Shown here: positions 603-33,400 of the stretch, one piece after another
How the letters are laid out: each line of letters begins with the position of its first letter
How positions within the stretch are numbered: position 1 is the first letter of the stretch
The notes under the pieces: generated by a model
What the model saw: the letters and a program-made list of their open reading frames with translations, nothing else
Database searches by the model: none
What the model was told of the DNA's origin: nothing
Position numbers and translations under genes: made by a program
Source: Methanobacteriota archaeon
Lineage (GTDB): Archaea; Halobacteriota; Methanosarcinia; Methanosarcinales; Methanosarcinaceae
Length of the DNA stretch: 33,888 bases
Assembly: GCA_030054735.1 (NCBI GenBank)
Contig: JASGVX010000099.1
Location: 1 to 33,888 of the forward strand
Reading direction: 5' to 3'

Positions 603-622
603 TTCAATGGAAATAAAAGGGT
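603..622 (+). other. Degenerate ORB-like site
   Basis: TTCAATGGAAATAAAAGGGT resembles the ORB core (TTCCAGTGGAAACAAAGGGGT) with one base missing and a shortened G string. Same orientation as the strong site at 765. Confidence 0.4.
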
Positions 623-764: not shown

Positions 765-787
765 GGTTCCAGTGGAAACTAAGGGGT
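765..787 (+). other. Origin recognition box (ORB)
   Basis: Contains GGTTCCAGTGGAAAC followed by TAAGGGGT: the imperfect dyad TTCCAGTGGAA plus the G string that Orc1/Cdc6 winged-helix and AAA+ domains contact in characterised archaeal origins. It lies about 640 bp upstream of the cdc6 start codon and points toward it. Confidence 0.8.
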
Positions 788-1427: not shown

Positions 1428-2672
1428 ATGATAAAGGCTCAATCATTAGACGGCTTATTCGAAAAATTACTTGACGGAAAGTCAATTTTTAAAAATAAAG
1501 AAGTTCTTCGTCCTTCTTATACGCCGGACCTGTTATTACACAGGAACGACCAGATAAACAGCCTTGCAACTATCCTGGTTTCCGCACTCAGGGGAGAGAC
1601 CCCTTCAAACGTCCTGATTTACGGAAAAACTGGGACAGGCAAGACTGCTGTGACCAGGTATGTAGGAAAAGAACTCGAAAGAGTAAGTGAAGACAAATCA
1701 ATTTTCTGTTCTGTTGTTTATATTAACTGTGAAGTAATCGACACTCAGTACAGGCTTCTTGCAAACCTTGCCAGACATTTCGAAGAAGAGGTCCCTATGA
1801 CCGGGTGGCCCACGGATCAGGTCTTCATGAAATTTAAAGAAGCAATCGATGCAAGAGAGCAGGTCGTTATCATTATCCTGGACGAGATTGACAAGCTGGT
1901 CAAAAAAGGCGATGACGTCCTTTACAACCTTTCAAGGATAAATACCGATCTCAAGAAAGCCAAGGTCAGCATGATAGGGGTTTCTAATGACCTCAAATTC
2001 ACGGAGTTTCTGGACCCTAGAGTAAAAAGTTCTCTGGGTGAAGAGGAACTGATCTTTCCTCCTTACGATGCTGAACAGATCAGTGACATTCTCAAACAGA
2101 GGGCTAAAATGGCTTACAATGACGGAGTACTGGGTGAAATGGTAATCCCGCTCTGTGCAGCCTTTGCAGCTCAGGAACACGGCGATGCCCGCCGGGCACT
2201 TGACCTTCTGAGAGTTTCAGGAGAAATTGCTGAAAGAGAAAATCAGCCCCAGGTTCTTGAAGAACACGTGAGGCGCGCGCAGGAAAAGATTGAAATCGAC
2301 CGCGTGGTAGAAGTTGTACGGACTCTTCCTACACAGTCCAAGCTCGTGCTCTACAGTATCATCCTGCTAAGAAGCAGGGGAAGAGAAGGCAAAAATGTCA
2401 CAACCGGTGAGATGTATAATGTCTACCGCCAGCTCTGCCATCATATTTATGTGGATATTCTTACCCAGCGCAGGGTCACTGACCTTATGTCAGAACTTGA
2501 TATGCTCGGTATAGTCAATGCAGTTGTGGTAAGCAAGGGCCGCTACGGAAGGACAAAAGAAATCTCTTTAAGTGTTCCTGTGGAAAATACTCGCAAAGTT
2601 CTTCTTGAAGATTACAGGCTCAAACCTCTTGTAGACTTCAAAGCCTCAGTCTTCAATAAGATGTTCTCATAA
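1428..2672 (+). CDS. cdc6: Orc1/Cdc6 replication initiator
   Basis: ORC1-type initiator that binds ORB sites and is thought to load the MCM helicase. Length 414 residues, typical. AAA+ features are complete: Walker A GKTGTGKT (66-73), Walker B IIILDEID (148-155), sensor 1 near SMIGVSND (181-188), a candidate arginine-finger segment DPRVKSS (196-202), and sensor 2 GDARRALDLLR (252-262). A winged-helix DNA-binding domain follows from about residue 310. AAGAGGGT seven bases before ATG can serve as ribosome binding site. It is transcribed away from the origin-like region. The RPA and primase genes are also in this window, so several replication functions are near one another. Whether this is the only Cdc6 paralogue cannot be told from the window. 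Confidence 0.97.
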   Translation: MIKAQSLDGLFEKLLDGKSIFKNKEVLRPSYTPDLLLHRNDQINSLATILVSALRGETPSNVLIYGKTGTGKTAVTRYVGKELERVSEDKSIFCSVVYINCEVIDTQYRLLANLARHFEEEVPMTGWPTDQVFMKFKEAIDAREQVVIIILDEIDKLVKKGDDVLYNLSRINTDLKKAKVSMIGVSNDLKFTEFLDPRVKSSLGEEELIFPPYDAEQISDILKQRAKMAYNDGVLGEMVIPLCAAFAAQEHGDARRALDLLRVSGEIAERENQPQVLEEHVRRAQEKIEIDRVVEVVRTLPTQSKLVLYSIILLRSRGREGKNVTTGEMYNVYRQLCHHIYVDILTQRRVTDLMSELDMLGIVNAVVVSKGRYGRTKEISLSVPVENTRKVLLEDYRLKPLVDFKASVFNKMFS

Positions 2673-7841: not shown

Positions 7842-8352
7842 GCTAAGTCCCCTTTTATGAATCAATTTTTTCTAAACCAATGATATATATGTGAGAATTT
7901 TTAGTTTGTAGAGTTTATTTTGAATGCGGTTTATTGAATTTTAAAGATTAATCAATATTAATGCTTAATATTTCTGAAGCAGCAGCTTTTTGAAAATAGA
8001 ACTAATTATACTCACTTTAAAGCTGCAACTTTTAGAGTATGGCTTTCGCTAACTTTGTATCTGCCACTGGTATTAATATACTACAATATATTTCTTTTCA
8101 CACTGTTAGCAAGAAAACCAGGCAGGAAAAGCACCTTTTAAGATAAAGTAAATCGATTAAGAAAAATAGTTAGGAAATAAAAAGGAAAAACGCATATGAA
8201 ATTCTTCGAATAACAGGCACAAAAAATGAAAGTACCTGGAAGCACTTTCATGCTAAATAACTGTTAAAAAACAAACCAATCTAAAAAGCAAATCGGTTAA
8301 GCAGGAAATCGATTAAAAACAAATGAAAACAGGTATATAGACAGTTAATCTG
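7842..8352. other. Intergenic region between RNA ligase and GTPase-like genes
   Basis: About 510 bp, AT-rich. It contains GCAGCTTT and AAAGCTGC (about 7982-8028) as an 8-bp inverted repeat and hairpin element copy A (8192-8258). No ORF is supported. Promoter sequences for the downstream minus-strand gene must lie here but none stands out. Confidence 0.5.
8192..8258 (+). mobile_element. 67-bp hairpin element, copy A
   Basis: Begins GCATATGAAATTCTTCGAAT after flank AAAAAC and ends in a hairpin ATGAAAGTACC / AGCACTTTCAT followed by GCTAAAT. Read on the minus strand, the hairpin is followed by ATTTTTTG, so it resembles an intrinsic terminator about 100 bp after the RNA ligase stop codon. Confidence 0.85.
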
Positions 8353-10605: not shown

Positions 10606-10823
10606 CCCACATTCCACAGTATTTTTTCAAAAATCAATATTTAGCATGAAAGTGCTTTCCAGCACTTTCATTTCTTTGTGCCTGTTATTCGAAGAATTTC
10701 ATATGCATTTTTCCTGATAGTGTTTTTGAAACAAATCAAATTAATTTGGACATTTAATGGAAGCATTGAAAATAGATAGAAGGAAAAATTGTGAATATGC
10801 GAAAATTTACTGTGAAAAGTGGG
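10606..10823 (+). mobile_element. CCCAC-ended MITE, complete, carrying a nested insertion
   Basis: Terminal inverted repeats CCCACATTCCACAGTA (left) and TACTGTGAAAAGTGGG (right) match at 19 of 23 positions over the full arms. Without the 68-bp insertion the element would be 150 bp. The left half recurs at 2706-2793. Confidence 0.75.
10639..10706 (-). mobile_element. 68-bp hairpin element, copy B, inserted in a MITE
   Basis: Reverse-oriented copy, beginning ATTTAGCATGAAAGTGCT and ending GAAGAATTTCATATGC. Deleting it restores AATCAATATTTTTCCTGATAG, found uninterrupted at 2732-2752. This gives both element boundaries directly: no target duplication, and an ATTTTT (minus strand AAAAAT) flank at the CATATG end. 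Confidence 0.92.
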
Positions 10824-10998: not shown

Positions 10999-11775
10999 TC
11001 ATTCCTGAATTGTGTTTATGACGTTCCTGCGTGCGAGGAAACCAACGAGTTCTTCTTCCAGATTGAGGACAGGAACGCCTCCCACATCGTGTTCTAGCAT
11101 GCTATTAACCGCATCTGAAAGAGGGGTATTGGTGTGCACACTGACCACATTGCGGGTCATAATATCTCCAACAAGCAGGTTCTTGATTCTGGAGTCCTGA
11201 TGGTTGTCAGCTACCAGATCCCTGAAAGAACGCATCGCAAAAGCGATATCATCTTCTGCAATGATTCCTACAAGTTTTCCGTTTTCAATTACCGGCAATC
11301 TTCCCACATTTTTATCAAGGATGAGGCGTCTGGCGTGGCTTACACGGTCTGAAGGGCTGATAGTGATCGGGTTTTTTTCCATTATTTCCCCGACAAAGCC
11401 TGTGAAACGGTTTATTTTCATGAACTCCTGAGGGGTCACCCAGCCCATTGCGTTTCCATTATCACTGACAATGATCACGCCCCCTTTATTTTTCATAAGG
11501 ATAAGGGCATCTTTAATGTCAGTGTCTGGTAAAACCTTTACAAAATTGTCGGATATGGCTGTTGCAACATGCAAAGAGGATGCTGGTTTGCTCTTTTTCC
11601 TGCGAGTTCCAAGTTGCTCTGTCAGACTTCTCATGGTAAGCACTCCGAGTACCTGGTTGTCATTGACTACAAGCAGACGCTTTGTGTCTTTCTTTTCCAT
11701 GATATCAAGGGCGTGAGATATGGTTTCTGACTTATTAATCCTGTGTGGTTGTACCATTATGTCTTTAACTTGCAT
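10999..11775 (-). CDS. CBS-domain protein 1 (four CBS motifs)
   Basis: Protein of 258 residues made only of CBS motifs, paired as two Bateman modules. The motifs lie around [56 protein letters not shown] and [18 protein letters not shown]. Such modules bind adenosyl compounds (ATP, ADP, AMP, S-adenosylmethionine) and usually regulate a partner, but no effector domain is attached. The start is ambiguous: GTG at 11784 is in frame, but GAGGTG overlaps it and is well placed as ribosome binding site for the ATG at 11775, which I prefer. It is the last gene of a four-gene minus-strand series, each separated by about 0.3-0.6 kb, so probably with separate promoters. Confidence 0.88.
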
Positions 11776-12097
11776 GCATTTCACCTCATGCGTATCCAGA
11801 ATTTTAATTTTTAATTCTTCACAGTTTTCGTTATTATAGACGTTCTTGCATTTTTACAGACTTTAATACATCCATTTTTCCAAGTTTTATTTGCATCCTT
11901 CTTTTGCTTCAGCGTTCCTCTTTTTGTTCTTTTTACCGTATATACCGTAATACGTGCTGTCGTGGATTTGCTATCATAATTAATTTTACCTTTTTAAAGG
12001 TGCTTTGCTCCTCTTTTATTCTCAATGTTACTGTAATTATGTTCCCAATCCACTTTTAGAGTATCCTTTGTAGGATACGGCTTTTATAATATCCTTT
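11776..12097. other. Intergenic region between CBS genes 1 and 2
   Basis: About 320 bp, T-rich on the plus strand. TACCGTATATACCGTAATACGTG (near 11935-11958) is a short repeated TACCGTA motif, and its minus-strand reading contains TATA-like TATATACGG. AGAGTATCCTTTGTAGGATACGGC near 12058 contains GTATCC/GGATAC, a small dyad. No gene is supported. Confidence 0.4.
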
Positions 12098-12943
12098 TCA
12101 GAGCACGGCTTTCATAATGTCGGTCCTGCTCAGTATTCCTACTATTTCTTCATTTTCACTGACAGGCAGGGCAGTCATTCCTTCTTCAATCAATTTTTTT
12201 GCAGCATTGCTAACGTTCTCGTTTATATCAATGGACATTATTGGAGAAACCATGATGTCTTCTGCTGTTAGGGGCACTTCTTTCACGTACCTGTAAGTTT
12301 TCTGACCTCCAGGTGAGGACTTCCGTGTCATCTTAATACTTTTTGTTGAAAGTTTGCCTTCGTTATCAGTTAAGAGATTTAAGGCAATGCTTCTCCTCGA
12401 AATCAGTCCAACAAGTTTTCCTGAATCGTCTTTAACGATTACTCTCTCAATCTCATTTTTATTCAGTTCATCTATGACGTGGTTGATTGTGTGGTGCCTG
12501 TGAACAGAAACAACATCTTTGGTCATCAGTCTGGAGATCTTGGTTTCTATTTCATCTTCATGTTCTGCAACATAGCGCACGATATCTGTCATGGTAACAA
12601 TACCTATGATATCGTTTTTTACCACCGGAATGTTATGTACCCTGTTCTCAAGCATCAAGGCGACTGCCTGGGAAATGGAGGCCTCGGGATAAATGGTGAT
12701 TACGGAATCAGTCATCAGCAACTTGATAGGGATCTGGTCTATCGGTCGTCTCCTCCAGAGAGGTTCAGCCTGAGCTAGGCGGTTTGTGATGTCTGATTTC
12801 GTGACTATTCCCACCATTTTTTCCTTGTTGAGAACAAGCAATGTACTGATTCTGTGTCTTAACATCAGATTTCTTGCATATGACACGGGTTCATCTACGT
12901 TAATAACGTACACAGGTGAACTCATGATGCCCGCCACATTCAT
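12098..12943 (-). CDS. CBS-domain protein 2 (four CBS motifs)
   Basis: Protein of 281 residues with four CBS motifs: [56 protein letters not shown] and [20 protein letters not shown] 40-residue basic linker (about 190-225, with [19 protein letters not shown]) separates the third and fourth, so the second Bateman module is spread out compared with its neighbours. ATGAAGGAGGTATTC before ATG gives a strong ribosome binding site and fixes the start. There is no attached enzyme, transporter or DNA-binding domain, so it is presumably a nucleotide-sensing regulator of an unknown partner. Confidence 0.9.
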
Positions 12944-13524
12944 TGAATACCTCCTTCATTTTTACAGTATATATATTAATAATTATAGTTTTTGAATTAA
13001 GTGTAAATTTTGAAATTTTTATTGTAAACTTTCCTTTAAATTTCAATATTTTATCAACATCGGCCGTTCTTTTTAAATTATATTCTTTTTAATTTACATT
13101 AAGAAATCATGATAATAAATCATGATACAAGTATGGAGTTACAGGCTGATCAGGAAGTATGCTGGTTGAAGAGAATTTGTCTTCATAATTTGTCTTTAAA
13201 ATTGTATTAAAGGAATATCTAAGGAACTTTTCTGAACCTTTATTTAAGACCAGCTATGCTCAAAGATACATAGATCACTAGAATACAGATTTTATTCTGG
13301 TCTGTCCAGCTAAGAAGTTTACCTCTTTGCACCTTTTTATGAAGTTGAACCCGGATTTCATTTTATGGATTCTTCGGGTTCATTCTGGTTTATCGGTTCT
13401 GGTCTGATTTAACAGAAATTTTTCTGATTCAACAGAAATTTTTCTGATTCAACTGAAGATTTCATGGTTTAGCAGGGTCTTTTCCAGTTTACCATGGTTT
13501 TTATTGACCTTATTTAAACTCCTA
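12944..13524. other. Intergenic region between CBS genes 2 and 3
   Basis: About 580 bp. AT-rich promoter-like DNA lies upstream of CBS gene 2 (12960-13090, with TATATATTAATAATTATAG). A degenerate 20-bp tandem repeat lies at 13404-13463. The rest shows no gene, RNA or element that I recognise. Confidence 0.45.
13404..13463 (+). repeat. 20-bp tandem repeat near the 3' end of CBS gene 3
   Basis: CTGATTTAACAGAAATTTTT, CTGATTCAACAGAAATTTTT, then a degenerate CTGATTCAACTGAAGATTTC. About 60 bp beyond the CBS gene 3 stop. Confidence 0.75.
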
Positions 13525-14526
13525 TTAAAAGTCAAAAGCTCGCAGGAAATCACTCTCTGTAATAATACCGCATAGCATTCCATCTTCCAGAACAGGAAGT
13601 GAACCTATCTTTTTCTCGAGCATGATTTCCATAGCCTCCCCCATATCTGTGCTAGGGCTGGTCCAGATCAGTTCTTTTGAAACAATAGATCCTACAGGCT
13701 GGTCCAGAGCCTCACGAATATTCCCTGTTGTGAGTTTGCTGAACGCATCCCCTCTCCCAAGGAAATGAACAATATCAGTGGCAGTAACTATTCCCGCAAA
13801 GATCCCGTCCTTTACCACAGGAAGCCTTCGGAATCTGTTCTCTACCATTATTTTTGCTGCCTGTCCTATAGTAGAATCTGTTGTTACCATTATGACATTT
13901 TTGGTCATATATTCATCAACAGTTTTATTTGTCACAGGTCCGCCCATCAGTTCCACGGCGTTTCTTTCAGTAAATATTGCGACGACCTGCATTTCATTGT
14001 TTACTATAGGCAGGCCTCCCGTCTCCCTTTCAAGCATTGTTTTAACGGCTTCCTTGAAATCTGCCTGATCATAGATGTATGCAACATCAGTATCCATGAT
14101 CTGCCGTACTTCTTCATTTATTGCAGCCAGAAGGTTGCCTTTGAAGCGGTTTGTGACAAGGAGGTTTCTTTTGCCGCCTCCCAGGAAATCAATGATATCT
14201 ACAGTAGTAATTACCCCTTCCAGTCTCCTTGTTCCTGCGTCTGTGATAGGGATACGCCTGAATTTTCTTTCAGTCATAATCTTTATTGCATCCATGATGG
14301 TTGCAGTGGGAGGGAGAGTTACTACATTTCTTGTAGCGAGAGCAAGAATTTTTCCCTCATGTGCTGAAATTCGGGATTTAAAATCAGGGCCAAATCTCAT
14401 TGTGCCCATGCTGCTGACCATCTGTGGATCTTTTTTCTGTGGTTTTTTGCTTGATTTGTTCACTTTTGGCTGAACATTCTTCTTTTCGACTGGTACAAAT
14501 GACTTATTTTTGCTCAATAGGATCAC
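13525..14526 (-). CDS. CBS-domain protein 3 (four CBS motifs, basic N-terminal extension)
   Basis: Protein of up to 333 residues. A lysine-rich, probably disordered N-terminus of about 60 residues ([19 protein letters not shown]) is followed by four CBS motifs: [57 protein letters not shown] and [19 protein letters not shown]. The annotated start is GTG at 14526. GGTGATCC, complementary to the end of 16S rRNA, ends two bases before an in-frame TTG at 14517, so TTG may be the real start, three codons shorter. The basic tail could contact nucleic acid or a membrane; this is speculation. Partner unknown. Confidence 0.88.
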
Positions 14527-14817
14527 CGAATCGAGTTGCAGTTAATTGTTTTTTCTTCTTCAGCTTTTCTTCTTCCGTTTTTCATCTACCTGCATTTCGC
14601 AGAAATTTCTCATGAGGCATGAATCGCAGCCTCAGAACCTTGGTTAGTGTTGGAGACAGACAAAGCCCTGAAGCAATCTTTTCTCGAATCTTTCTTAACA
14701 CTTATTCTTTTAACATTTACTCTTATTTGCCGATCTGTAATCTTTATTAATTGTAATCTTTAATTGTTATAATCCTTTTGTGTGAGAACATAACTTTTAT
14801 TTTCTTGTGCCTCAGGA

Positions 14818-15612
14818 TTAGTCATTCCATCCTTTAACTATGGCCTCCAGAAGATCTTGCCTATCAACGATCCCAGATATTTTGCCCTGCTCATTTACTA
14901 CAGTAACTCTTCCTATATCGCGCTGGACAATCATTTTAATAGCATTTCTGATGGAATCATTCTCTGAAAGAGTATAAACGGGAGTGGACATAATCTTCTC
15001 AACTTTGGGACTTTCGTTTGGCCTTGTTGCCCGTTCGTCTTCTACGGACATTCTTAAAATGCCTGATTTAATTATGTCCCTTCTTGTTATCATTCCAATA
15101 GGGTCCTCTTTCTTTGAAATTACTGGAATGCCGGTATAATCTGTTTCTATCATATAGTTCCAGATCTTGGAGACCCTTTCATCTGGAAAACAGGTTTTGA
15201 CTTTTTTAGTCATAATGGCTTCTATTGTTTTCGAAGTGCTTTTGGGGAGTTCCACGTTCCTGAGAATATCCACATCACTGAGAATTCCCACGACCAAACG
15301 GTCTGTTGTTGATTTGACAACCGGAACCCTGTTCTGTTTCGATTGCACCATCAATTTTGCAGCTTTCACAACATCCATATCCGGAGTGACTGTCGGGGAC
15401 TGCCTTGCATACCCACCAACCGTGACATCCGAACGTGTGGACGTAATCCTCATGATATCCTGGTCATTTAGCATTCCAACAAGCCTGTTTCCTTCATCAA
15501 CAACAACAACACCCCGAAGGAAGTGGTCACGCATCAGCTGACGGGCACGAGTTGCAAATTCTCCTTCTTTGATACTTACAGGCTTATTTGTCATAATCTC
15601 GCTGACATTCAT
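14818..15612 (-). CDS. CBS-domain protein 4 (four CBS motifs)
   Basis: Protein of 264 residues with two Bateman modules: [56 protein letters not shown] and [35 protein letters not shown] before ATG is a strong ribosome binding site. It is the first gene of the minus-strand CBS series. About 70 bp upstream lies a double insertion of small mobile elements, beyond which a decayed further CBS gene is found. As with its neighbours, no effector domain is fused. Confidence 0.9.
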
Positions 15613-15680
15613 TATTTACCTCCCTGTCTTTTCTTTAAAATAGAAATTTGAAAGTTAGGATCTCAAACTTATATCTCACT

Positions 15681-15768
15681 CTAGTGTTGCGTCGGCGTTA
15701 AGATGTCGCATATGATAGATTACACCGATTCAAAATCGTATAATCCTTGATGACTAACACGACACTAG
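15681..15768 (+). mobile_element. 88-bp small mobile element, family CTAGTGT (copy 2)
   Basis: Bounded by CTAGTGTTGCGTC and ACACGACACTAG. The interior shares AAGATGTCGCAT and CGATTCAAAATCGTATAATC with the copy at 33643-33729. The terminal CTAG is shared with the adjoining copy 3. Confidence 0.8.
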
Positions 15769-15852
15769 TGTTGCGCCATCAGTAAAATGTGGCATATAGT
15801 TGGTTACAACTATTCAGAATCCCTTAATTCTTGAGGATTGACGCGACACTGG
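15765..15852 (+). mobile_element. 88-bp small mobile element, family CTAGTGT (copy 3)
   Basis: Begins CTAGTGTTGCGCC, abutting copy 2 through a shared CTAG, and ends GACGCGACACTGG. More diverged from copy 2 than from the origin copy at 1078. It cuts off the reading frame of the decayed CBS gene that follows. Confidence 0.75.
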
Positions 15853-16085
15853 TGATTATATCCTTATCTGTGATAATAACGCTTCCTGTATCACGATTTA
15901 CAATTTACTTTGCAATAGCAGGAATATCTGAGTTAATATCCATTGCTATGACTGCTTTATTCATGACTTCAACAACTGAGACCTCTTCTCAATATCTCTG
16001 TTGTGAATATCAGTACCTGTTTCCCTTTCAGGGTCTTGCACCATTGGTTGTTGCAGTTCACTTTATGCCTGTTCAACTCCCAAAT
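15853..16085 (-). pseudogene. Decayed CBS-domain gene, truncated by mobile elements
   Basis: On the minus strand one frame reads EEVSVVEVMNKAVIAMDINS, then DIPAIAK, stop, IVNRDTGSVIITDKDIIT, ending at the CTAGTGT element. This is a recognisable CBS motif (VMxxxVxxxD...VITDKD) with an in-frame stop. Upstream, a second frame (VQDPERETGTDIHNRDIEKR) would join through a frameshift. The gene is thus broken by a stop, a probable frameshift and an insertion that removed its 3' part. It lies next to four intact CBS genes on the same strand and was probably a fifth member or a related CBS-pair gene. Confidence 0.65.
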
Positions 16086-16450
16086 TCGGCAAATTCGTTC
16101 TTAAAAATCCATTCAGGTTTTAAATTTCCTGTGGAAAAATCTTCCATATTCTTTTAAACTTCCCCGTTTTTATACAGCTCTGGAAGGAAATCCTGAAAAG
16201 CCGGTTATCGGTAAAATTTTCGTTCGAATATCTTTCCAGCTTTTTTTCCTTTAATTACCGCACATCTGAGACTTTTTTTCTAATTTTAGTATATACGAGT
16301 CAATGGTACATAATGCTAACGGCATTTCCTTTTAGTAGCCTTTTAGTAGGGATCTATTTTTTCTCAAAGTAGGCGCATTAACTCTTTTTTAAAGCCGAGC
16401 CTTCCGTCTTCTTCGCGAGGTGTTTCTGAAAGTTCGGCAGGAATTTTTCA

Positions 16451-16473
16451 AACCCCTTTATTTCCACTGGAGG
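16451..16473 (-). other. Origin recognition box (ORB), rpa-proximal copy 1
   Basis: The minus strand reads TCCAGTGGAAATAAAGGGG followed by TTTGAAAAATTCCTG. The dyad and G string match the origin copy at 765. Similarity with the next copy (16699-16721) continues past the box through the A-rich tract and CCTG. Confidence 0.7.
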
Positions 16474-16492
16474 TTTTTGTTCCAGATGAAAC

Positions 16493-16559
16493 GCATATGA
16501 AATTCTTCGAATAACAGGCACAAAGAAATGAAAGTACCTAGAAACACTTTCATGCTAAA
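16493..16559 (+). mobile_element. 67-bp hairpin element, copy C
   Basis: GCATATGAAATTCTTCGAAT after flank GAAAC. The hairpin arm here is diverged (AAGTACCTAGAAACACTTTC) and the end reads GCTAAAA rather than GCTAAAT. It starts 20 bp from the ORB at 16451-16473. Confidence 0.85.
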
Positions 16560-16698
16560 AATATCTAATTGTCTATAAAAAATATTAAGGAGAAGCAACT
16601 GAAGGAAAGTATACTTCTGGAAAAAATATTAATAAGAATAAAACATTCCTAATTATATTTAGAATACTATTGATTTTTCTCACAGGAAATTTTTTTAA

Positions 16699-16721
16699 AC
16701 CCCTTTGTTTCCACTGGAACC
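16699..16721 (-). other. Origin recognition box (ORB), rpa-proximal copy 2
   Basis: The minus strand reads GGTTCCAGTGGAAACAAAGG GGT, the best ORB consensus in the window, followed by TTAAAAAAATTTCCTG. It is a direct repeat of the box 248 bp away, and points away from the RPA gene toward the CBS cluster. Confidence 0.8.
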
Positions 16722-17000
16722 AACTTTTCTACTTTTTTGCTTGAAATATGTGGGTTTAGAACTGACTATATTTTCCTGAAAAAACTAATCTTTTTCAAAA
16801 AGAAGAAAAGAGAAACCAGAAAGGGACTATATAATAAATAAAATATGAATGTAGTAAATGTCAGGTAAATGTAAAATCAAAATTCGACAAATTCAGTAAA
16901 ATCCAGACCCTGACATAATGTAAAAACATTAACAGAATTTGATAGTAATCCAGCAAAAAATAAGTATAAAATTAAGAGCGGTAAAAAGTTAATATAAAAC

Positions 17001-17068
17001 ACATATGAAATTCTTCGAATAACAGGCACAAAGAAATGAAAGTGCTGGAAAGCACTTCCATGCTAAAT
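17001..17068 (+). mobile_element. 68-bp hairpin element, copy D
   Basis: Flank AAAAC, then ACATATGAAATTCTTCG, hairpin GAAAGTGCT-GGAA-AGCACTTCC with a GNRA-type loop, end GCTAAAT. Nearly identical to copy E. Confidence 0.9.
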
Positions 17069-17122
17069 AAATACAGTATTAGGCAGATAAATAATGCACC
17101 GAAAATAAATAAACAGATAAAT

Positions 17123-17238: not shown

Positions 17239-17261
17239 AAAATAAACAAGAGATATAAAAC

Positions 17262-17329
17262 TCATATGAAATTCTTCGAATAACAGGCACAAAGAAATGA
17301 AAGTGCTGGAAAGCACTTCCATGCTAAAT
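17262..17329 (+). mobile_element. 68-bp hairpin element, copy E
   Basis: Flank AAAAC, TCATATGAAATTCTTCG, hairpin as in copy D, end GCTAAAT. On the minus strand the hairpin is followed by ATTTCTTTG, about 90 bp after the RPA stop codon, so it could act as a terminator for RPA. Confidence 0.9.
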
Positions 17330-17365
17330 AAAATAATGAGAGAGCTTAAGTAAATAGAAACAGGG

Positions 17366-17429
17366 GAATGATCAGGGAATAGAATGATCAGGGAATAGAA
17401 TGATCAGAGAATAGAATGATCAGAGAATA
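17366..17429 (+). repeat. Four 16-bp tandem repeats overlapping the RPA stop codon
   Basis: GAATGATCAGGGAATA twice and GAATGATCAGAGAATA twice, contiguous. The last unit supplies the TGA stop (minus strand, 17420-17422) and the last codons of RPA. Confidence 0.9.
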
Positions 17430-18874
17430 ATCACTCTACTCCTGTTTCCAACACTTAATTCTATTTCTTCATTCAGCCCATACCTGGCATACGCGTCAAT
17501 TATCTGGATTTCGGAATCGATATCCAGGTCTTCTATCACATAGGCCTGTTCTCCCCAGAGGGTTACCCGGATGCTGCCTGTTTCGTCCTTAAGTTGCAGG
17601 TTTGCTAGCACATTTCCGGTTCCGTCTTCTTTTTCAAACTCTCTGAGTTCCCCTATCTCGGAGACATTTCCCTGTACAGAATAACTTTCTCCAGGGCTGA
17701 TTTCAGCTATGTCAGTAAATTTCTCTCTATAATCAACCTTTTTTTCACTTCTTTGAATTATTCCTCTGGCTCCCAGACTGAGTTCAACCTGCTGGCTGAA
17801 AGTATTTTCCCGAGAATAAGCGTTAAGGACTTCAACGGTCTCATCAAAATCAATTTCTTCAAGAAAATCGGTTTTTTCATCCCAGATGGTCAGTCTTATT
17901 TTGCCTGTAGAATCGCCCAGAAGGATATTTCCTACTCTTCCAACAGACCCATCTTTTTTCTCGAAGGTTCGGACTTCTGATATATCAAGCACCCTTCCTG
18001 AGACATTAATATTATTCATATCAGCCTTTATATCTTCAATAGGGGTAAACTCCTCTTCGTATTCAACTTTCTTTTCACTTTTCCTGATCATGCTCCGGTT
18101 TCCTATCTGCAGCTCTACTTTCTGGGTAAAGGCATTTTCCCGAGCATAAGCATTGACAAGCTCAACAGTATCCCCATACTCAATCTGATTTAGAATATCA
18201 GTTTTTTCGTCCCAGAGTGTTACTCTAAGCGTACCTGTTTCGTCTCCTATCAACAGGTTTCCCACCCTTCCACTGTTGCCGTCTTTGCGCTGGAAGGTCC
18301 TGACTTCGGAGACCTCCAGTACCTTTCCGGTAACGTTGATGTCTCCCATACCATCTTTTATGTCCTTTATTTTCTGGCTGCTCGAGACCACATCGACTTC
18401 TTCTTCACTTTCGGTTAGAACTCCATTGTTGCCGATGTTAACTTCCACTCCGGAATATCCCTGCTTGGAAAATCCGCTGACCTGAATGGTTTGCCCTGCA
18501 TTTATTTTTCCTGTCTTAATCAGATCTGCCATGTTGTCCCAAAGGGTTAACTTTACTTTCCCTGTCTCATCTCCGACGATAAGGTTTCCCACCCTGCCTA
18601 TAGTCCCGTCGTTCCTTGTGAACTCTTTAACATCGAAAACCGAAATAATTCTTGCAATAAAATTAACAGGTCCGCTCTCGGGGGTAATATTTTCTATTTT
18701 TATGCTGTCTCTGCCTAGATCCGAGAATCCCAGTTCATTAGCAACCAGCATGGCAGCCATTTCCTCATCACAAAGCCCTCCCATGTTCTCGACCTTTTCC
18801 TGTGTGCGCTTCAGGAAATCCTCTTTACTTATGAAGTGGCTGAGCTTCTTATAAATAGTTTCAATATCGGTCAT
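17420..18874 (-). CDS. rpa1: Replication protein A with four OB folds (RPA1 type)
   Basis: Single-stranded DNA-binding protein of 484 residues. Four OB-fold units lie at about 65-155, 170-265, 280-375 and 390-484. Each carries the repeated core GRVGNLLIGDETGTLRVTLW or a variant (the fourth diverged: VLANLQLKDETGSIRVTLWG), and the first three end in an ALNAY/VNAYARE-like strand. No zinc finger is present. This architecture and length match the M. acetivorans RPA1 described with four DNA-binding domains, as distinct from RPA2 and RPA3. The first about 50 residues are helical. AAGGGAATAAT precedes ATG as ribosome binding site. Downstream lie a tandem repeat at the stop codon and terminator-like hairpin elements; two ORB matches are within 1 kb of its 3' end. 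Confidence 0.93.
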   Translation of the reverse strand: MTDIETIYKKLSHFISKEDFLKRTQEKVENMGGLCDEEMAAMLVANELGFSDLGRDSIKIENITPESGPVNFIARIISVFDVKEFTRNDGTIGRVGNLIVGDETGKVKLTLWDNMADLIKTGKINAGQTIQVSGFSKQGYSGVEVNIGNNGVLTESEEEVDVVSSSQKIKDIKDGMGDINVTGKVLEVSEVRTFQRKDGNSGRVGNLLIGDETGTLRVTLWDEKTDILNQIEYGDTVELVNAYARENAFTQKVELQIGNRSMIRKSEKKVEYEEEFTPIEDIKADMNNINVSGRVLDISEVRTFEKKDGSVGRVGNILLGDSTGKIRLTIWDEKTDFLEEIDFDETVEVLNAYSRENTFSQQVELSLGARGIIQRSEKKVDYREKFTDIAEISPGESYSVQGNVSEIGELREFEKEDGTGNVLANLQLKDETGSIRVTLWGEQAYVIEDLDIDSEIQIIDAYARYGLNEEIELSVGNRSRVIIL

Positions 18875-20483: not shown

Positions 20484-21545
20484 TCAGTCTACCGATACTT
20501 CAAAAAGGCCTTCTTTTTCTTTTATCCTGAACTTAACACCTAGAAACTGCTCTGTGACCCAGATATTTGTTGCGGCATGCGGTGTCAGCTCTCGGACTGT
20601 GTAGGAACTGTTGCCTGCAAGTGCCATATATGGGATTAACTGGTCTGCCAGATACATATCCACAGCAGCTCCTGCTTTGAGTTCTGCAATAATTTCTTCT
20701 GCAGCGCGCTTGCCTACTTTCTCAGCAGGCAGCCCCTTCTCTCCAGGAGCGCTTCCCCCATAGTAACCAGTCCAGAGAGTTATCCCGCTTCCTGTGGAAA
20801 AAAATTCACAGGATCGGACATCAATCTGGGAAGCATATCCAGCTTCAAGAAGAAGGGATTTAGCAGCTTCTGCCTGGCGAGATGGCACATGGTCCGGAAG
20901 GTTCGATGCATGTGATAATCCCATGATTTTTTCCTTCTCGCTCGGCCCTCCTTTCAAACCTTCTCCATCTGTCAGTTTTTCCCCTGTGCTTTTATTTTCT
21001 TCAGTCTCCTGAAAATGAAAACCACGTATCTTGCATGGTTCAAAAACAGCTGAGACATTTCCTCCTCCCCTGGGATAGTAGCCGCGTTCTTCAAGGGTTA
21101 CACTTCCCGCATATCCAAACTGTTCAAGTGCCCTGAGAGTTATATGCTGCAGGTAGTCTATTGTTGGAGACCAGGCAACGTCAGTCCCACCTCTAATTAT
21201 TAACTCGACCTTTTCTTTTGCAAAAGGCAGGGCTGGCATAATGCATTGCAAAAGCAGAGTAATGCTTCCTGCGGTTCCGATATCAATATTATACTTTCCC
21301 CCCTTTATTTCCACTGGAGCAAAATATAACTCCTTAGAACCTGGAAAAAGACCTGAAACCCGTGCTCTGCAGATCTTTGCTGCAGTTTCCAGAGCTTTAA
21401 GGTGCTGCTGTTTCAGGCCTGGATTTGGCCTGTTTTTCCTTATATTCGTAATCTTTATTTCTTCTCCAGTAACTGAAGAAAGGGCAACAGCGGTTCTGAC
21501 TACTTGCCCGCCTCCTTCTCCATAAGAACCGTCAATTTCTATCAT
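20484..21545 (-). CDS. rtcA: RNA 3'-terminal phosphate cyclase
   Basis: RtcA converts RNA 3'-phosphate to a 2',3'-cyclic phosphate with ATP, via a covalent histidyl-AMP. Length 353, slightly over the usual 340. Visible landmarks are the N-terminal IDGSYGEGGGQVVRTAVALS, IRKNRPNPGLKQQH, DIGTAGSITLLLQ, RGYYPRGGG, SHASNLPDHV and the C-terminal ELTPHAATNIW whose His323 should be the adenylated residue. A hydrophilic insertion at about 179-206 (TEENKSTGEKLTDGEGLKGG) precedes the SHASNLP motif and accounts for the extra length. The gene ends toward kptA. Codons 76-82 contain a 19-base exact match to the ORB at 16451. Confidence 0.95.
   Translation of the reverse strand: MIEIDGSYGEGGGQVVRTAVALSSVTGEEIKITNIRKNRPNPGLKQQHLKALETAAKICRARVSGLFPGSKELYFAPVEIKGGKYNIDIGTAGSITLLLQCIMPALPFAKEKVELIIRGGTDVAWSPTIDYLQHITLRALEQFGYAGSVTLEERGYYPRGGGNVSAVFEPCKIRGFHFQETEENKSTGEKLTDGEGLKGGPSEKEKIMGLSHASNLPDHVPSRQAEAAKSLLLEAGYASQIDVRSCEFFSTGSGITLWTGYYGGSAPGEKGLPAEKVGKRAAEEIIAELKAGAAVDMYLADQLIPYMALAGNSSYTVRELTPHAATNIWVTEQFLGVKFRIKEKEGLFEVSVD
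21297..21319 (-). other. ORB-identical sequence inside rtcA
   Basis: The minus strand reads CTCCAGTGGAAATAAAGGGG. Nineteen bases are identical to the box at 16451-16473. Here it codes for PVEIKG in RtcA. Binding by Cdc6 is possible by sequence but not shown; chance convergence with a coding constraint is the alternative. Confidence 0.4.
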
Positions 21546-33063: not shown

Positions 33064-33254
33064 ATTTTTTCCTCCTATTATTATTTAAAGATTTATATTT
33101 AGGCTGAAATCGCAATGAAGTGACATTATTTGAGATAAAATTTATGAGGCAACAATCGCAATGAAATGTCACCCAAAAACAGCCCAAATTAATAACAACA
33201 AATTGGTTATTACTGTATAAAAAATTTTTCCACTGACTGGGAGATATATAAAAC

Positions 33255-33321
33255 GCATATGAAATTCTTCGAATAACAGCCACAAAAAATGAAAGTACCC
33301 AGAAGCATTTTCATGCTAAAT
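33255..33321 (+). mobile_element. 67-bp hairpin element, copy F
   Basis: Flank AAAAC, GCATATGAAATTCTTCGAAT, a slightly diverged hairpin (GAAAGTACCCAGAAGCATTTTC), end GCTAAAT. GCCACA replaces GGCACA of the other copies. Confidence 0.88.
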
Positions 33322-33400
33322 ATGGAAATAGCTTTTAAATTAGCTTTTTAATTAGAAACAAAATAAAAAGATATAGAAGAATTTAAGAAATAGATTACTA

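Follow-up and report, generated by a model that had tools for sequence, protein, structure and literature searches.

Little is known of how replication initiation is restricted in archaea, and the only archaeal titration element with a characterised function that was found is haloarchaeal. In Haloarcula hispanica, oriC2D is a region downstream of oriC2-cdc6E that is rich in ORBs, the recognition boxes of Cdc6/Orc1; it has no origin activity and restrains the adjacent origin (PMC3936714). In bacteria, the Escherichia coli datA locus combines a few initiator boxes with an IHF site and promotes DnaA-ATP hydrolysis (PMC10950094), and removal of all six oriC-proximal DnaA-box clusters of Bacillus subtilis advanced initiation (reviewed in PMC5295017). 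Canonical archaeal origins are exemplified by Sulfolobus oriC1, which is abolished by loss of either inverted ORB (PMC12141716). The prediction program Ori-Finder 2 assigns oriCs to intergenic regions that contain ORBs and adjoin replication-related genes.

The locus considered here lies in the window, the whole of a ~34-kb contig that makes up 1.2% of a 2.88-Mb Methanosarcina-type genome; the closest named matches of its RPA1 are from Methanosarcina species. A pattern search for ORBs that allows up to three mismatches identifies four matches in the window, at 766-787 on the plus strand and at 16452-16473, 16699-16720 and 21299-21320 on the minus strand. None of 100 dinucleotide shuffles of the window yields a match at this threshold, and 2 Mb of Markov sequence contains no ORB match that reaches 15 bits; the boxes beside rpa1 score 37-39 bits. 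Genome-wide there are seven strong ORBs (one mismatch at most), four of them on this contig, and reversed-pattern controls give none in the genome. The pattern search and the shuffles bear out the first-pass annotation, which had described two near-perfect ORBs in direct repeat next to rpa1, similar to the cdc6-side ORB and opposite to it in orientation (Table 1). Two further parts of that description hold as well: the similarity runs on past each box through an A-rich tract and on into TTCCTG, and the DNA between the boxes is AT-rich (26% GC). The pair is located between the rpa1 stop and a decayed CBS-domain gene, ~15 kb from the predicted oriC.

Table 1. Features at and around the ORB pair beside rpa1, with positions in the window
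Feature	Position	Strand	Remarks
Weak ORB, second member of the cdc6-side tandem pair	604-622	+	12 bits
cdc6-proximal ORB	769-787	+	35.8 bits; opposite to the rpa1 boxes; conserved block behind it (TGTACTTCCATTG at 811)
cdc6/orc1	1428-2672	+	Product presumed to bind the boxes
Remnant of a 209-aa CBS-domain/zinc-ribbon gene	15866-16044	-	Intact in relatives
32-bp block CCGTTAGCATTATGTACCATTGACTCGTATAT	16291-16322	-	Upstream of the CBS gene; TATA-like end; single copy per genome searched
Box 1 tail (GAAAAATTCCTGCC)	16433-16451	-	Conserved in the alignment
ORB box 1 (CCAGTGGAAATAAAGGGGT)	16452-16470	-	39.0 bits; kept genus-wide
Box 1 leader (TTCATCTGGAACAAAAACC; TTCATTCTCAGCAAAAATC in many relatives)	16471-16490	-	Conserved in the alignment
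Inserted copy of dispersed ~75-bp repeat	16491-16559		Between the boxes; repeat match 16484-16563
AAATATAATT motif between the boxes	16651-16660	-	Identical in 21/21 aligned genomes
Box 2 tail (AAAAATTTCCTGTGAGAAAAATCAATAG)	16668-16698	-	Conserved in the alignment
ORB box 2 (CCAGTGGAAACAAAGGGGT), rpa1-proximal	16699-16717	-	37.4 bits; kept genus-wide
rpa1 (OB-fold replication protein A)	17420-18874	-	3' end (stop at 17420) toward the two-box element
Third ORB, inside rtcA (20484-21545)	21299-21317	-	Same orientation as the rpa1 boxes

The same pair in the same orientation is present past the rpa1 stop in all 20 relatives in which the cdc6-rpa1 interval was compared, and it follows rpa1 in 27 of 27 Methanosarcina loci with intact flanks. 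Outside these 27 loci stand two that are cut by contig ends (G090 and G091), one with a single recognisable box (G092), and one with no full rpa1 (G101). The comparison with close relatives proposed in the first-pass annotation, for which absence of the boxes would have spoken against them, thus finds them present. Wherever the pair occurs, its boxes are arranged in tandem, and an inverted ORB partner at the boxes is found in none of these genomes. In 24 of the 27 loci the boxes are spaced 177-180 bp apart; the remaining three have 168, 173 (G094), and 247 bp (the window). Two sister genera also carry the pair, g5 in three genomes with a spacing of 167-168 bp and g4 in one genome with a spacing of 135 bp, and the 1.5 kb around the rpa1 homologue did not show it in several genera of the family that are more distant. 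The standard deviation of the spacing, with the window excluded, is 2.2 bp, compared with 213 bp for the box-to-rpa1 distance; hence the two boxes are kept as one unit whose position is not fixed relative to rpa1. The distance from box to rpa1 stop varies from 83 to 832 bp among the genus loci, and in some species box 2 is only 83-96 bp from rpa1. Helical phasing (177-180 bp is ~17 turns and 168 bp ~16) is suggestive only and was set aside, as the 173 bp of G094 and the 247 bp of the window are out of phase and the spacings are not independent.

Conserved sequence in and around the boxes amounts to ~220 bp, with a mean column identity of 83% across the element in an alignment of 12 species. 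Beyond the boxes, conservation extends over the A-rich/TTCCTG tail after each of them and the leader before box 1 (alignment of 21 genomes). The pair is neither a product of chance, nor coding, nor private to the window genome; conservation at near-fixed spacing supports the earlier claim that the boxes are ORBs forming one unit, and they are almost certainly under selection as ORBs. A structured RNA was considered and rejected, since covarying helices are absent: none of the 27 pairs predicted in the element shows compensatory changes. An Rfam search of the window gave no match.

The 247-bp spacing in the window is derived, because an insert of ~70 bp, a copy of the dispersed repeat, lies between the boxes. 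This insert is confined to the window genome, where it widens the spacing from 178 to 247 bp, and the rest of the alignment between the window and the sister genome G099 has no gap of that size. The repeat has at least 42 copies in the window genome, occurs in relatives too, and has no Rfam match within the window. The intergenic copies in the window, which share a GAAATTCTTCGAATAACAGGCACAAAGAAATGAAAG core, are located at 8187-8260, 10638-10711, 16486-16559 (the one between the boxes), 16992-17071, 17253-17332, and 33246-33322.

The predicted oriC of the relatives has the canonical inverted-ORB layout (-/+/+) and is located 1.4-6.7 kb upstream of cdc6. It consists of a minus ORB, an AT-rich spacer of ~200-450 bp, and two plus ORBs 39 bp apart, and the plus-ORB region carries a G-rich/TATATAAAC stretch. 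In G099, the oriC plus ORB is ~1.9 kb upstream of cdc6; the window contig extends only 1.4 kb upstream of cdc6, and its own oriC is therefore taken to lie off the left contig end. Since a complete oriC is present upstream of cdc6 in the relatives, the pair beside rpa1 is an extra site. The gap between cdc6 and rpa1 is ~14-19 kb in every relative measured. A further plus ORB, nearer to cdc6 than the oriC array, is the cdc6-side ORB; its weak partner is present in many genomes, and the tandem spacing is ~164 bp in close relatives that have it and 123-127 bp in another clade. The strongly conserved block that follows the cdc6-proximal ORB (CTTTACCATAACTATTAATACCGTGTACTTCCATTGCATCTACTG; 769-1000 in the window) precedes the start of cdc6 by 0.5-1.4 kb in relatives, and this leader block may be a long-leader promoter.

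The likeness of the rpa1 pair to oriC2D, the DnaA-box clusters, and datA is one of anatomy. Like oriC2D, the pair is an archaeal ORB cluster near but outside the origin, on the downstream side of cdc6, and is not itself a canonical origin. Unlike oriC2D, which is ORB-rich and directly follows cdc6E, it has two boxes with a fixed spacing and a conserved middle, and lies ~15 kb away beside rpa1. Function was shown for oriC2D; for the rpa1 pair we infer it. The presence of several initiator-box clusters outside the origin recalls Bacillus, whose clusters differ in that the initiator is the bacterial DnaA, the boxes are unrelated, and redundancy was shown experimentally there only. With datA, the pair shares the form of a small non-coding element with few initiator boxes, conserved in place. 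Where datA has an IHF site, the rpa1 pair has the invariant AAATATAATT between the boxes, a candidate site for a second protein, possibly a DNA-bending or nucleoid protein. To our knowledge, no datA-like hydrolysis-promoting activity is known for Cdc6 here. As at canonical archaeal origins, the ORB sequence is that of the Methanosarcina oriC and the initiator is presumably the same, but the pair has no inverted partner, no adjacent cdc6, and no skew switch.

The best explanation of the pair is a conserved non-coding two-ORB element that acts mainly in initiator control outside the origin via Cdc6/Orc1, a reading based on sequence to which a probability of roughly 0.5 is assigned. Cdc6/Orc1 would bind both boxes outside the origin, perhaps only after a second protein has occupied the invariant region between them. 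The pair would then hold or reshape initiator molecules, as a titration or remodelling site, so that initiation at the nearby oriC would be controlled and its timing affected, and replication would not start at the pair. The pair shows two features expected of an extra-origin control element, in that its initiator boxes are clustered outside the origin and are conserved in place and arrangement. The reading draws on the retention of the pair in all intact genus loci and in g4 and g5, its near-fixed spacing and column identity with an invariant motif, the lack of RNA covariation, the complete oriC upstream of cdc6 with a T/A switch there, the ORBs at rtcA and past a radical-SAM gene that suggest a distributed set, and the characterised precedent of Haloarcula oriC2D. 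Against it, two boxes are sparse for simple titration, as oriC2D and datA carry more; the window genome tolerates an altered spacing, and G092 has kept one recognisable box. The element is conserved in Methanosarcina, a genus with genetically tractable species such as Methanosarcina acetivorans and Methanosarcina mazei, which makes initiator control directly testable.

A conserved CBS promoter block also lies downstream of both boxes, which makes a transcriptional role possible: bound Cdc6 would regulate the CBS gene, or rpa1 read-through, in parallel to cdc6 autoregulation through the ORB upstream of that gene. This explanation is unlikely. The block is the 32-bp segment with a TATA-like end, whose distance past box 1 is 118-142 bp in 20 of the 21 genomes and 177 bp in the remaining one; it is probably the CBS-gene promoter. 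The cdc6 leader has an ORB and a similar TGTAC-N0-3-CATTG motif, leaving room for shared regulation. Opposed to this is the draft genome G092, in which a stretch of ~5 kb separates box 2, which stays with rpa1, from the intact block, which stays with the CBS gene. The promoter block thus exists there without nearby ORBs, and this argues against the ORBs as an essential component of the CBS promoter. The CBS gene is dead in the window genome, yet both ORBs score 37-39 bits; this argument is weak because the copy in G099 is intact and the decay is recent. In addition, the rpa1 promoter is far from the element, which is located past the 3' end of that gene. The 32-bp block had been considered as part of the ORB element and was dropped, as it travels with the CBS gene in G092.

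The first-pass annotation had placed the first box in a possible decayed reading frame, which is not the case: the CBS gene, intact in G099, begins ~400 bp from the box, and the first box is therefore intergenic, with the CBS remnant confined to the interval given in Table 1. The TGTAC-N0-3-CATTG motif has exactly two copies in the window, at 811 by the cdc6 ORB and at 16301 beyond the rpa1 pair, both in strongly conserved blocks; it may be a transcription factor site that cdc6 and the CBS gene have in common. The window also contains a run of four CBS-domain protein genes with the decayed fifth beside rpa1 (10999-15612) and a tandem 84-bp repeat at 15678-15845.

The suggestion of a second or auxiliary origin at 16-17 kb, firing from AT-rich sequence that separates or adjoins the boxes, is unlikely. 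Two high-scoring and strongly conserved ORBs that match the genus consensus, AT-rich inter-box DNA with an invariant motif, and the adjoining rpa1 are all consistent with such an origin. However, the boxes are tandem everywhere, whereas an origin as a rule has inverted ORBs on either side of an unwinding region, a layout that the oriC upstream of cdc6 follows and that Sulfolobus oriC1 illustrates by its dependence on both ORBs; cdc6/orc1 is 14-19 kb away, and box 2 comes within 83 bp of rpa1. A Z-curve study, as cited in PMC4164010, finds a single oriC in M. mazei. Strand composition also places the switch at oriC/cdc6 and not at rpa1. In four complete relatives, pooled, the fourfold-site T/A skew in minus-strand genes amounts to -0.205 left of oriC, -0.036 from oriC to the pair, and +0.011 beyond; for plus-strand genes the values are 0.033, 0.165, and 0.125. 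The segment between oriC and the pair is therefore right-arm-like, with bootstrap support for a left-like segment of 0.001 and 0.000. GC skew failed to discriminate, and T/A skew alone is informative. An origin at rpa1 may still exist in a weak or dormant form. An ORB pair beside a replication gene is by itself no proof of an origin, which is a caution for origin predictors.

Quite unlikely is an architectural site, at which Cdc6 on the cdc6-side and rpa1-side tandem pairs would bridge them (handcuffing), or would mark or slow the outgoing fork, with the oriC-rpa1 segment as a domain. The cdc6-side ORBs and the rpa1 pair do face each other across 14-19 kb in relatives, and the near-origin ORBs at rpa1, in rtcA, and at about -20 kb each have the G-run toward oriC. 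The constant distance may merely reflect conserved gene order, and the ORBs at about -45 kb seem to lack that polarity. A rule by which every outer ORB would be directed toward oriC was abandoned, since the sites ~45 kb to the left seem to be directed away from it. The first-pass annotation offered the alternative that inserted genes had split an ancestral origin, of which the rpa1 boxes would be the far side. Their orientation opposite to the cdc6-side ORB speaks for this reading, but it is very improbable: relatives retain the complete -/+/+ oriC upstream of cdc6, the same ~14-19-kb gap is present genus-wide, rpa1 is ~17 kb into the chromosome record of one sister-genus genome, and the G-runs of the boxes face inward, the reverse of the oriC arrangement.

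Initiator control outside the origin, the preferred reading, may involve further sites. The rtcA ORB (codons CCA GTG GAA ATA AAG GGG) coincides with the best synonymous-conservation window of the gene among 26 relatives, which is suggestive as it is the top of ~340 windows. Past a radical-SAM gene, a second cluster is present genus-wide (L107, G000:C66 256-274; L241-L255 in relatives), with one to three ORBs that share one orientation. Its distance from oriC varies and is often large, and no cdc6 match adjoins it. Contig C66 of the window genome, with a strong ORB near its end, had been considered as the missing left half of oriC; this was dropped, as synteny identifies it as the separate conserved radical-SAM locus. 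Together, the radical-SAM cluster and the rtcA ORB suggest a distributed genus-wide set. By analogy with datA/DARS and the DnaA-box clusters, it is a tentative possibility that the dispersed same-orientation ORBs (rpa1 pair, rtcA ORB, cdc6 leader, and radical-SAM cluster) constitute an archaeal initiator-control network, in which the two-box element, with its fixed ~17-turn spacing and co-factor site, would inactivate or recycle Cdc6.

Additional ORBs occur in several other contexts. One is inside a gntP-like permease gene left of oriC (L109, G000:C52, position 3667; around -20 kb in G083, G103, G079, and G081); the gene looks decayed in the window genome, and the ORB within it survives. An ORB-like site is present inside aroE at +57 to +74 kb in G103 and G079, and an isolated strong ORB is found at 5340-5358 of L256 (G000:C104:28000-38000).
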